DNA of 64,000 nt from NCBI GenBank assembly GCA_009869945.1, contig WIXG01000002.1, positions 186,001-250,000 on the forward strand. Reading direction: 5' to 3'. The position numbers were made by a program, and so were the translations under genes. Every line of letters starts with the position of its first letter. Position 1 is the first letter of the stretch. Below, piece after piece: positions 30,580 to 51,834 of this stretch. Source of the stretch: Mesaphorura yosii (lineage: Eukaryota; Arthropoda; Collembola; Poduromorpha; Tullbergiidae). A model generated the notes under the pieces. The model was given only the letters and a program-made list of their open reading frames with translations. It made no database searches and was not told the DNA's origin.

Positions 30580-31733
30580 ATGCATTTACAGGTTAGTAGT
30601 TCGCTCATTAATCCGCAAATTCCTTTCTTAGCCCTCGTCTTCTCTTGCCGTGTCTCCGTTCCAAGAAATTCTCGTGTCAACAAAAGAGTGTGATTAAGTC
30701 GATGGAGAAGAGATGAATATTTGAATATTCAAATGAGATCTCATTCATTCAAGCCAAACGGTCTAACCGCACGCAACTCATTATTATTCCAGACATCTTC
30801 TTTTGTTCTTCTCGTCGGAGTGATCGTGTTCGCCAGCGCAGCGCCCGGATACGGCGGCCAAAAGAACCGAGCTGCTCTAAGAGCAACTCCTTACGCCGCC
30901 GTGCAGAAAGTGCTCGAGGAGCCTCAAGACGAGTACGAAGTCGTGGATGAAGTCAGGGCCGTTCCCGTCCCGGTCCGCTCGTCGTACGTGAAGCAGACAA
31001 ACGATGACTACTCGAGATCATCTTCGTATGGACAGTCACCGCAATTCAAGATCGATAATGACCGCATTGCAGAAGAACAGGCGAAATCTGCAAAGTACGC
31101 TTTTGCTTCAGCGGTGGACGATGGCATCATGGACCAGGTAAGAATACAACTAGCAAATTTCATACAAATTATGCTTGAAAATTCGTAACAATGAAAAACG
31201 TATTCATAATGTTTACATTTCAGTCTCAAGTGAGGCAGGAGGTTCGTGATGGACTCAAGGTTGGTGCAGAGTTCTTAATTGTTGTTTGCCAATTACCAAT
31301 TAATTGGGTCGACGTAAAGCGTCAGAGATGAGTTTGATTGACATTCTCAACTGTATAATGAATGGATGAATTATGGCTTCTATTTTAGGTCAGTGGTTCA
31401 TACAGCTACAGCGACGGGTTCTTCAGACGAACTGTCAAGTACGAGGCTGATGAAGCTGGATACCGGGTTGTCGGGTAAGAACGTCAGCATAAACATGAGA
31501 AAAATCTTCAAATTCTGGGTACTCAATCATGCCGATGCTGAATTTGGCTGGCTTTTATCGTTTCCAGAGAGGAAGTAGAGCCCATCGGCGCTGGCCCACA
31601 AGTCGACTTGGTCAACGGAAAGGCTGACGTGCACACGCAGGTGGAAGGAGTCAACACTCAGTACTCAATCTCCGCAGACGAAATAAGACTGATGGGCGGA
31701 CGCGAGGCAACTCTCAAGAAAGCTGTCTATTAA
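30580..31733 (+). CDS. Cuticle protein with RR chitin-binding domain
   Basis: Five exons: 30580-30591, 30793-31137, 31224-31259, 31389-31474 and 31568-31733 (214 aa). The first coding exon holds only four residues (MHLQ) and splits the signal peptide, a layout typical of arthropod cuticle genes. The signal peptide ends near FASAAPG. The middle carries a Rebers-Riddiford consensus: YAFASAVDDG, then EVRDGLKVSGSYSYSDGFF and VKYEADEAGYRVV. This domain binds chitin, so the product is probably a secreted structural protein of exoskeleton or lining cuticle. The exon 3 donor is AAG/GTTGGT, the same unusual type as in the CNG gene, so such donors seem usable in this genome. A poly(A) signal is at 31757-31762. 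Confidence 0.93.
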
Positions 31734-47236: not shown

Positions 47237-50200
47237 TTAATAAACTTGAGTTATCACACCAGCTGCAATTGTTACTCCACCATTTCTTAGCGTGAACCTT
47301 CCCAGCTCCTTCACGTCCCTGAAATAAGTCGTAAGATTATAATTTGGCCCAGATTTGGAGAGGCGAGGCGTGAAAAACTCTATTTGTACCTGAATTCTTC
47401 AATGCAAACTGGCTTCAGCGTTTCAATCTCGATTACTCCGTTGGAATTCTTGCCCAGACACCGCGGCTTGAGCTTGACAACTTCACCTGTCCCCTTGCTC
47501 AGTTGGCTGACAAGTTTCTTCACAGTCATTTGCTCGGAAGTCGTGCCCAAATGGATGACACCAGTAAATCCTTTGATGAGTGGGATTGTCATCGTGTCAA
47601 ACGTGACAACCGTCGCCTGAAACCGTGAGCTGACTTTGGCAGGGAAGTTCGGGTCGCTGATAATATCACCGATTCCAATTATGGAGCCGTCAGCAAGATT
47701 TTGGAGCGTGACGAGGACCGGATCTCCAGCAAACGCAGCCGAGCCCATGTCTTCTTCTAAAGTAATGTCTATCCAAAAACGCATCATGTAATCTCATTGT
47801 AACCGTTCATTAAAGCTAATAAAGTAAAAGAATCTCTCATACTTTTGATGGTGGCGACTTCGTTCATGGGCTGAATCAGTACTTTGTCTCCAGCCTGCAA
47901 CATTCCAGTCTCAATTCTTCCTGCAACGCAAAATCCGCCCGGTCCCTTAAACATGTCGTTGACGGTCATCCGCAGGGGCTTGCCAACAGGCCTTTCAGGA
48001 GGTCTGAATGAATCTGCACCGAAACAAAACATTGCATCAAATTCTTCAGCTCGCAAAGGCGAATTTTACATTATTGGCTGCCCTTGCCCTTACCAATGGC
48101 TTCTACTAACGTTGGGCCAGTGTACCAACTCATCAGCGCTTGCTCATCCGATTTCTTCGTAAGGTTTTCTCCTACCAGTCCGCTGCACGGGACGAATGTC
48201 AGGTCACTTTCCCTGAAACCAGCATGCCGCACGAGGAAGCTGGTGAGTTTGGTCTTTATTTCCACAAATCTGTGCTGAGACCAATCGACGGTGTCCAGCT
48301 TGTTGACAGCGATGATCAACTGGTTTACGCCTAAGGACCTGACTAAGATGGCATGCTCTCTCGTCTGACCTCCAGACTCAAAGCCTGTTTCAAATTCTCC
48401 AGTCGTTGAATCGACGACGAGGATCGCAACGTCCGCTTGTGAGGCGCCGGTTATCATATTCGGAATAAAGTCTACAATCCAGACAACTCAGTTGCAGAGT
48501 GGCATATTGGGCTTGACGCTTCATGTCTGAATTTCTGTACCTTTATGCCCTGGTGCGTCAAGTAAAACGATTTGCTTCGTGTCAGTCTCAAATCTTGACT
48601 GCCCAACATCCATCGTAATACCTCGTGACCTGGCCAAGAATATTTAATTTCCATACATTTGAGACGACTACAGCTCGTTGACTACGATGATTTTGAAACT
48701 TTGTGTTACCTCTCTTCTCCTGTTTCGTCCAGAACCCAGGCGTAAACGAAGGATTGTTTTCCGATCTTTTTCGACTCCTGCTCAAATTTGTGCATTGTTT
48801 TCTTCGAAACTTGGCCCAACTGCCAGAGTAGATGCCCCATCACTGAAAAGGAGATTTCGTTAATGTAACGGCATCATTTCAATGATTTCAGCTGAGTAAC
48901 AAAACTTACAAGTGCTTTTTCCAGCATCGACATGGCCAATCACAAGTAAATTGAGCAAGTCCTTCCCCATCCCACGAATTTTGGCGTATTCGTTTAAAGC
49001 TGCGTCGGGTTTAAATTCTTTCGCAGGTTTGCTGTTTGTGAAAGGTTAAATTAGTCGAATTTGTTACATAATGCCTCCTACGTGTGAAAAACATATTGTA
49101 CCTTCGCTTTTCTTCCATCCTCTCTTCTGCCGGGGTAGGCGAAGGGGCTTTGCTGCTACTTTTCGACCCGCCCGGAGTTCCTTGAACTGCCAAAGTATCT
49201 TTATCCTTCTGAGATGGCAATTCGAATCCAATTGTGACGCTTCCCTTCGACGCAGGGACAACTTTGACATTGTCGGTCTTGGAAGCTGGAAAAGGAGACG
49301 CTGTAGTTTTGGAAGGCTTCGGCACGTCGGCAGCGACGACCTTTTGCTTCTGCGGTATCGGGCCAAGAACAATAGGACCTAAATCTCCTGTACAAAAGTA
49401 ACTTTGGCATTAATCAATCAATTTTATCAGTTGGAATTTCCAACAAACGTAGAAAGTTAAGAATTTCAAAATGGACATCCTTAAAGCTCGAAATGTTTAT
49501 TTAACATTTTACTTCTATAATATAAAATTCTATTCCATGAACTTCATAAAAGACAACAAAGTAAAATAATTTAAATAGAATGCGAAAGACGACGTTCGTA
49601 GAAGTATGTATGCAATTAGCATGCAAAGTATTAATCTGGACAGTTAAATAATTTTCGTATACAATTTCGCACAATTCATCCATTTTTGAGAATTTTGATA
49701 TCACCCATTGGCCGTATTGAGCACATGTGCTTCGACCGGTTTACCGGTGAAACGTCCATGGCGGGTGACGAGCTTAAGTGATCTGTTTCGATGATTTCGG
49801 GGTTTGCTGTTGCTGCTGGAGTGGCTGATACCCAACTGGTTTAGTGTCTAAACCTGCTGCGACTCGAGCATCGGGCGAAAGGGTGTCAAACTTGAACACT
49901 TTATCTCCGTATGTGTTTTGTAACTTCACCCAAATAAGACTCATGTGGGGGACGTGCTTAGATTTTTTGGAGTAGATATTCGACGAGATTTTCATTCTTG
50001 CTCCCAGAATGGACGGCGCTTTGCTAATTAGTCTCGCATCCATTCGCACGTTCTTTGGCTTACAAATCAGACTCATCTTTTCCTTGAGCTGGTAGCAGTT
50101 GTAGGGGGCGGTGGTATGAATGTCGTTCTTGTTCTTATCCAAGCGACTGCCGTTAGCAAGTTTCGGACTGTGGCTAACTTTTTCATCACATTGATCAGTT

Positions 50201-51834
50201 GGTACAGGCGCTGGTGTTGTGGAGTTCTGCTTCTTGATGCTTAACTGTCTCTGCTTGGCAAATAATGGATTCGCTTTGGCGGGAATTGGGGTTGAGACTG
50301 CCTCGGGTGCTGGTGTAGTAAATGTCGTACCATTTTGGCTGGTTTGGAGTAGCGTTTCTTCAGCTTGATTGGAATTGGAATATCTCTTCAAGCTCAACTG
50401 CTTTTGCGCAGCAAACAACGGGTTCAGGTTGGGCTTAGGGGAAAAACTGTTGGTGTTATCGATGGGCAGATTCTCCGGTAGTGGGTTTTGCGGTTGTGTC
50501 TCAGTTGCTGACGGTGGGTTCATTTTAATTAGTCCATTGAGCCTGTTATTTTGACTATTGCTGACTAGTCGCTTTTGTGCAGAAAACAGCGGACTGAAAC
50601 CAGGCGAAAATCCGTTCGCCACGTCCCTTTTATTCGGGGCTGGCTTAGATGCCAAATTTAACCGCTGAAGTTCATTTGTACATTCTGTCACTGTCACTGG
50701 ATGTTGACCGTTGGTGGTTTGATCAACCTTCTGAAAATGTTGTTGAGCGAGCTTCTCGAATTCTGACACCTTCCGTGGTTCAATCATTGGAGATTTTTCA
50801 GTTGAGATAACCGAGTTCAATGTTTCCGCTTTAACATTTAGGCTAATATCATTCTCAAATTCTACACTATTGTTACAATTGGTACTAGGAGATTCCGAGA
50901 TTAAAGAGAAAATTCCTGAGTCATCTTACCTTATGAAATTGTAAAAGTAGAAGTTTATGACAAACATAGGATTAATAATGGTAAAGAGCATCCAATTGAA
51001 CACCAGGATCAGAGTTGAGAGGCACCAAGAAAGAAAACAGAATGATCATTAGTTAAAGTATTTGACTACAATTTGTTATACACCAAGAACTCTCGTTTAC
51101 CTTTTGCTGGAGTCTTCTTACTAGGGCCGTCCCGCCGCACTGGTAGAGTGACTTCTGCGATGAGGACAAAATTTTATTAAGACTAACTTGCCTTGAAAAT
51201 TCCAGAATATATAACTTCGTTTAATGGATACCTTCTGGTGGGTGATTAGCGACTCCAGCTCTTAAGCAAGCGTCCAAAGCTCTTTCTACGTTGAACTTGT
51301 GCTTCAAGATTTGACCTATGATGATGGGGTCCGGGACTGAGTCGCCAATAACATTATGAATTTCATCCAGGCACGATTTGAGGAGGATTTCTTCTTCTGG
51401 AACCAAATCTACCAGTGCGTTTTCTAGTGTTATTGACTCTAGTCCTTGTCGTGTCGATTCAATAGACGGATCTTTGGTTTCATCTTCTGGACCTTCTTCA
51501 ACAATTGCAGCTTCATCAGAGGAGAAGAACGAGGAAATCTGGTTTGGCTTATTGCGGTCGTACAGATACTGAGAAGCTGTAATTGCATAAATTCAATTAG
51601 GAAATAGCACATTGATTGAAATATTGATGAAAATGAAGACTCACCACCGGGACTGACGCAATAATCGTCATCGAGCGAATGTCCGTAAACATCGTTGTAT
51701 CCTTCGTAATCTATTATGCAAGCAAACATAGGTGTGAGACCTGAGTTCCTTCTCCTACGACTCAAACAAATCATAATTACAAATTCCTTACCTTCATCGT
51801 AGTTGGCCGTTCTAATATTCCGGTGTCTTGCCAT
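47237..51834 (-). CDS. HBS1L: HBS1 ribosome-rescue translational GTPase
   Basis: Twelve exons: 51834-51792, 51710-51645, 51576-51232, 51154-51101, 49387-49102, 49031-48910, 48842-48710, 48629-48541, 48471-48094, 48013-47843, 47768-47390 and 47318-47237 (715 aa; human about 684). The N-terminus [15 protein letters not shown] and [13 protein letters not shown] are the HBS1 signature, followed by a UBA-like region. The eEF1A-type G domain shows GHVDAGKST, the switch [19 protein letters not shown] and a CSG motif, then two beta-barrel domains ending GVITQVY. HBS1 works with Pelota to split ribosomes stalled on broken mRNA. The 1.7 kb gap between exons 4 and 5 contains an alternative terminal exon, described separately. 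ACOT13 starts divergently on the other strand. Confidence 0.96.
49774..50924 (-). CDS. Alternative terminal exon of HBS1: SKI7-like exosome adaptor isoform
   Basis: A 1151-nt exon lying between HBS1 exons 4 and 5. If joined to exon 4 (ends 51101, phase 1) through the acceptor at 50925-50926, the frame stays open and gives a 552-aa protein: 169 HBS1 residues plus 383 unique ones. The unique part is disordered, rich in Asn, Ser, Pro and Lys, and has no GTPase domain. It contains three copies of a PLF-x-x-Q-[KR]-x-L motif and ends with a more ordered region including [15 protein letters not shown]. Human HBS1L makes a comparable short isoform (HBS1LV3) that links the cytoplasmic exosome to the SKI complex, so the same role is inferred here. 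A minus-strand AATAAA near 49496-49501 could end this transcript. The acceptor has only a modest pyrimidine tract. Confidence 0.75.

Follow-up and report, generated by a model that had tools for sequence, protein, structure and literature searches.

The analysis covered a window of 64,000 nt, the whole stretch of Mesaphorura yosii DNA considered here (assembly GCA_009869945.1, contig WIXG01000002.1, positions 186,001-250,000 of the forward strand), and all coordinates refer to it unless another contig is named. The minus strand of the window carries an HBS1 gene, whose 12 exons join in one frame from 51834 to the stop codon at 47239-47237 and encode a protein of 715 aa (Table 1). Both the HBS1_N domain and the elongation-factor GTPase domains were detected in the exon frames with Pfam, and HBS1_N has a single match across the 93-Mb genome. 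Exons 1-4, which encode the shared N-terminus of 169 aa, match the HBS1-like protein chain of PDB 5lzw with 76.1 bits (E 3.1e-20). The fourth intron, from 51100 to 49388, contains an alternative open frame, which is the subject of this analysis. Elsewhere in the window, a stretch on the plus strand at 31386-31484 resembles the cuticle domain chitin_bind_4 (E 2.8e-5, with two stops in the matched frame), and its surroundings have the look of an exon between two introns. Such a stretch is ordinary for an arthropod. It is one of at least 66 matches of chitin_bind_4 over the curated cut-off in this genome, a number that points to an arthropod source.

Table 1. Features of the HBS1 locus of M. yosii, in transcriptional order.
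Feature	Position	Strand	Basis
Shared exon 1 (HBS1 and predicted SKI7-type form), ATG at 51834	51792-51834	-	N-terminus aligns with HBS1-like protein 5lzw
Shared exon 2	51645-51710	-	Joined HBS1 model
Shared exon 3 with HBS1_N (UBA-like) domain	51232-51576	-	PF08938, 33 bits, E 8.1e-8
Shared exon 4, phase 1 end	51101-51154	-	Joined HBS1 model
Predicted SKI7-type alternative terminal exon, coding part	49774-50924 (or start 50915, same phase)	-	Open frame, phase with exon 4
Stretch with three PLFxxQ[KR]xL repeats	50233-50595	-	Repeats at 50595-50557, 50424-50386, 50271-50233
Candidate SKI7-like motif, 10 residues	49993-50022	-	Matrix score, not above shuffles
FKFDTLSPD, Patch 4-like core and predicted contact to CSL4	49870-49896	-	Matrix scan and DNA pattern; consensus from PMC6143672
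Predicted poly(A) signal AATAAA for the SKI7-type mRNA	49496-49501	-	Hexamer scan
HBS1 exon 5, first HBS1-only exon	49102-49387	-	Continues exon 4 phase 1
HBS1 exons 6-12, translational GTPase	47237-49031	-	Pfam and joined model
HBS1 exons 6-9	49031-48910, 48842-48710, 48629-48541, 48471-48094	-	
HBS1 exons 10-12	48013-47843, 47768-47390, 47318-47237 (stop 47239-47237)	-	

The alternative frame comprises 383 codons between HBS1 exons 4 and 5, running from 50925 to a stop codon at 49776-49774. The sequence-only reading had placed here an exon of 1151 nt, in phase with exon 4 and equipped with its own stop and a nearby AATAAA, whose product would have the HBS1 N-terminus and no GTPase. All of these features are borne out by the genomic layout. 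The interval 50924-49774 measures 1151 nt, exon 4 ends in phase 1 at 51101, and the frame continues that phase from 50924 or 50915. HBS1_N is encoded in exon 3. The layout read from the genome is that of an exon placed after exon 4 with its own stop, its own predicted 3' end and no GTPase. A TAA stands in frame immediately upstream of 50925, and the frame therefore needs either splicing or an internal start. With the base composition of intron 4, the chance of 383 open codons is about 5e-11. When codon usage was compared with that of HBS1, the real frame was the best of the six at 0.013 bits per codon, the next being at -0.071, which lends weak support to coding. The alternative frame matches only itself in the 93-Mb genome, with no second copy at E up to 1, and Pfam returned no family for the alternative exon. 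An AlphaFold model of the exon, run without relatives, has a mean pLDDT of 40.4 and a pTM of 0.16. These low scores likely fit a disordered chain and speak neither for nor against a SKI7 identity.

The donor of exon 4, AAAG/GTAAAC (the slash marks the cut), could be used by both isoforms. At the other end of the predicted intron there are two candidate acceptors. In addition to that at 50924, a CAG lies 9 nt downstream and would set the exon start at 50915 with the phase unchanged; because both are in phase, the predicted product is 552 or 549 aa long. On a matrix built from HBS1's own 11 introns, the acceptors at 50924 and 50915 score 1.6 and -1.6, respectively, as against -2.8 to 10.8 for the real HBS1 acceptors left out singly. 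The acceptor at 50924 has an A at position -3, which occurs in 0 of the 11 real HBS1 acceptors. An exon start at 50929, which would use the acceptor region's first AG, was rejected, being out of frame, yielding 178 aa and scoring -6.3. The alternative acceptor region is also overlapped by a donor-like site, TAAG/GTAAGA (50933-50924, minus strand, last base before the cut 50930), which scores 9.8 where HBS1's own donors score 2.2-10.4. It may be speculated that U1 at this site damps the alternative exon or its poly(A) site, possibly in a regulatory role. Between the alternative stop and exon 5, the AATAAA at 49501-49496 is the sole AATAAA or ATTAAA, and two further hexamers lie within the coding part of the alternative exon (50634 and 50529).

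Patch 4 is the exosome-binding signature of SKI7. Near the C-terminus of the alternative exon is the sequence FKFDTLSPD, which agrees at 9 of 9 positions with the metazoan and plant consensuses of PMC6143672 taken together. With a matrix of the human (PDB 9g8m_E), zebrafish, plant and yeast motifs, from which FKFDTLSPD was left out, it ranks 1st among the 75,843 stop-free six-frame positions of the window, scoring 30.2 while the next position scores 21.2. In the PDB, chain 9g8m_E carries the label HBS1-like protein, isoform 2. The core was also turned into a degenerate DNA pattern, designed after the site had already been seen. The one place in the 93-Mb genome that this pattern matches is the FKFDTLSPD site, and its backwards control matches nowhere; the chance expectation of F.F...SPD in a frame of the same composition is 1.6e-4. 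The second half of the consensus, DIV+A after SPD, is represented by ARVAA, in which only the V and the last A agree, so the Patch 4-like motif is partial as a whole. For the SKI7-like motif A+PShFAahL, which makes the RRP43/MTR3 contact, the best scores in the exon are 21, 20 and 18, and a fraction of 0.43 of 2000 shuffles reach 21. The candidate for this motif, whose score is not above shuffles, is located 40 residues before Patch 4. Searches of the PDB with phmmer found no SKI7 at E up to 10 for the whole alternative exon, though human 9g8m_E is in the library, and nothing at E up to 10 for its last 130 residues. Matches of the exon to a formate dehydrogenase (E 1.1) and a cutinase (E 1.5) were taken as chance.

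The alternative exon also encodes three PLFxxQ[KR]xL repeats, at residues 112, 169 and 220. This motif, which was derived from the repeats themselves, does not recur anywhere else in the window's six frames. Aligned over 13 codons, the three pairs of repeats share 22 identical residues (7, 5 and 10 per pair), of which 13 are encoded by different codons (3, 4 and 6). By these simple counts, which are no formal selection test, the repeats look like a protein sequence that was preserved as its silent sites diverged. When the PDB was searched with a profile of the repeats, no SKI7 chain appeared at E up to 10, and a match to one ribosomal protein at E 2.3 was taken as chance. The repeats precede Patch 4 by 113-233 residues, a distance that overlaps the interval of the SKI-binding region of human SKI7, and they are possibly a distinctive feature of the M. 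yosii exon.

Production of Hbs1 and Ski7 from one gene, mentioned in the sequence-only reading for humans and some fungi, is indeed established through splicing in vertebrates, fungi and plants (PMC6143672, PMC7924785, PMC3597508). Human SKI7 derives from alternative exon 5 of the HBS1 gene (PMC6143672), and zebrafish ski7 is a splice variant of hbs1l with a specific exon 5 (PMC7924785). The zebrafish exon encodes the Patch 4-like motif PFSFNTPSPDDIVK, and a peptide of it pulls down the exosome; zebrafish ski7 mRNA is most abundant in eggs (PMC7924785). Both proteins arise from one gene by alternative splicing in fungi (PMC3597508) and in plants (PMC6143672). SKI7 has additionally been recorded in six named invertebrate groups (PMC6143672), and SKI7 sequences have been found in Drosophila melanogaster and related insects (PMC7924785). 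Like human HBS1L isoform 3/SKI7 (HBS1LV3), the predicted M. yosii form comes from the HBS1 gene, has the common N-terminus and no GTPase, and carries a Patch 4-like motif near the C-terminus. Zebrafish ski7 is alike in its specific alternative fifth exon with a Patch 4-like motif, although the letters of the motif differ. The fungal and plant systems are alike in having one gene, two proteins and a Patch 4-like motif, but the GTPase region is kept in their SKI7 form, in plants through a cassette exon, and lost in the predicted M. yosii form and in human.

In the human SKI7 structure, the tail contacts RRP43/MTR3, CSL4 and SKI2, while an upstream helix binds SKI3 (PMC11540850). The helix corresponding to the SKI7-like motif spans residues 555-572 and the CSL4 patch residues 602-616 (PMC11540850); the SKI3-binding helix spans residues 451-464. 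The tail is 380-383 aa long in M. yosii as compared with about 488 in human, if the human protein ends at 632. After SPD, the human chain continues with DIVKANQ (9g8m_E), whereas M. yosii has ARVAAGL, and the SKI7-like motif is weak in M. yosii, unlike that of human HBS1LV3. A weak SKI7-like motif is also described for Drosophila SKI7 (PMC7924785).

Genes for two of these partners were located in the genome. A SKI2 gene lies on the same contig as HBS1, about 374 kb away (contig 2, 605500-612500). The helicase core of this candidate has human SKI2W as its best PDB match (158.7 bits), ahead of the FRQ-interacting helicase (97.2) and MTR4 chains (90.6). For its C-terminal exon, SKI2 and MTR4 were not separated by PDB matches, and one upstream frame gave no match. 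The gene appears to contain a short in-frame intron between AGRAG and GRRGL. The other DSHCT locus we take to resemble MTR4. A CSL4 exon was found on contig 31 (E 1.3e-5) at a locus reached via the ECR1_N profile; the genome search with the CSL4 profile PF10447 had no match. TPR_22, searched for SKI3, had no match in the genome nor in any of 14 controls and is hence uninformative on SKI3.

Overall, the locus is very probably an HBS1/SKI7 gene whose alternative exon yields a SKI7-type protein, with splicing, polyadenylation site and binding as predicted steps. That the exon is a SKI7-type terminal exon of HBS1 finds support, at the level of sequence, in the Patch 4-like core, in an exon position as in human and zebrafish SKI7, and in repeats that are alike in protein and not at silent sites. 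The same evidence upholds the earlier proposal of a SKI7-like isoform at this locus, for which we infer the splice and the function. Joining of exon 4 to exon 5 at 49387 would produce HBS1, the GTPase partner of Pelota. Joining of exon 4 to the terminal exon (50924 or 50915), with cleavage after the AATAAA at 49501, would instead produce a SKI7-type protein of 549-552 aa. This form would start with the HBS1 N-terminus, including the UBA-like domain, would lack a GTPase, and would finish in a probably disordered tail that bears the Patch 4 core close to the C-terminus. Homology predicts that this tail docks both on the exosome subunit CSL4 and on the SKI complex, which would couple the exosome to SKI, and the SKI7-type form would bring the RNA-degrading exosome to stalled ribosomes. 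A rather doubtful extension is that the repeats form a multivalent array on which the SKI complex, or some other decay factor, docks, offsetting the weakening of the SKI7-like motif and the loss of the DIVKANQ stretch.

Other readings of the frame have been considered. Were it a separate gene nested in HBS1 intron 4 and driven by its own promoter, its phase and position would be coincidental. The in-frame ATGs of the alternative frame, the first at residue 47, and the intronic poly(A) signal would suit such a gene. However, the frame agrees in phase with exon 4, the TAA right before 50925 requires splicing or an internal start, and Patch 4 marks SKI7, whose vertebrate source is the same exon position, so that a nested gene is highly improbable. 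It is likewise very unlikely that the exon is a relic, formerly functional and now decaying with little or no use. Its 383 codons remain open against the odds of chance, its repeats are the same in protein while their codons differ, its poly(A) signal is retained, and genes for SKI2 and CSL4 are present in the genome. In favour of a relic are the degenerate second half of Patch 4, the failure of the SKI7-like motif to rise above shuffles and the acceptors of only middling score.

The isoform might also exist with another job, for instance only competing with HBS1 for stalled ribosomes, its bridging activity having been lost. In human, the N-terminal fragment common to both proteins binds the 40S subunit (PMC11540850), and in mouse the UBA-like domain binds ubiquitin (PMC13232801); the exosome motifs of M. 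yosii are, moreover, partial. Nevertheless, the Patch 4 core F.F...SPD is kept and the gene for CSL4, the partner of Patch 4, is present, which makes this explanation quite unlikely. The preferred reading remains an HBS1/SKI7 gene with a SKI7-type terminal exon.

In the open literature, as covered by titles and the openings of abstracts, no paper had an arthropod SKI7 isoform as its subject; Marshall et al. 2018, reportedly the main transcriptome survey, was outside this scope. The M. yosii layout is a further case of the already described HBS1/SKI7 arrangement, because vertebrate, fungal and plant HBS1/SKI7 splicing and insect SKI7 have been reported. The surprise that the sequence-only reading attached to finding this layout in an arthropod was thus overstated, as Drosophila and insect SKI7 sequences were already on record (PMC7924785). 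The value of the locus lies in giving an arthropod SKI7 a clear gene model. Annotation easily overlooks SKI7, since conservation is limited to short motifs and its exon is intronic with its own 3' end. The model also bears on how widely the human-type layout, with a terminal exon and loss of the GTPase, is spread among animals, a question left open in PMC6143672. If the docking-array reading of the repeats is true, they would characterise an arthropod version of the exosome bridge. If the isoform is used, a single choice of splicing and polyadenylation would set ribosome rescue by HBS1 against mRNA destruction through SKI7.
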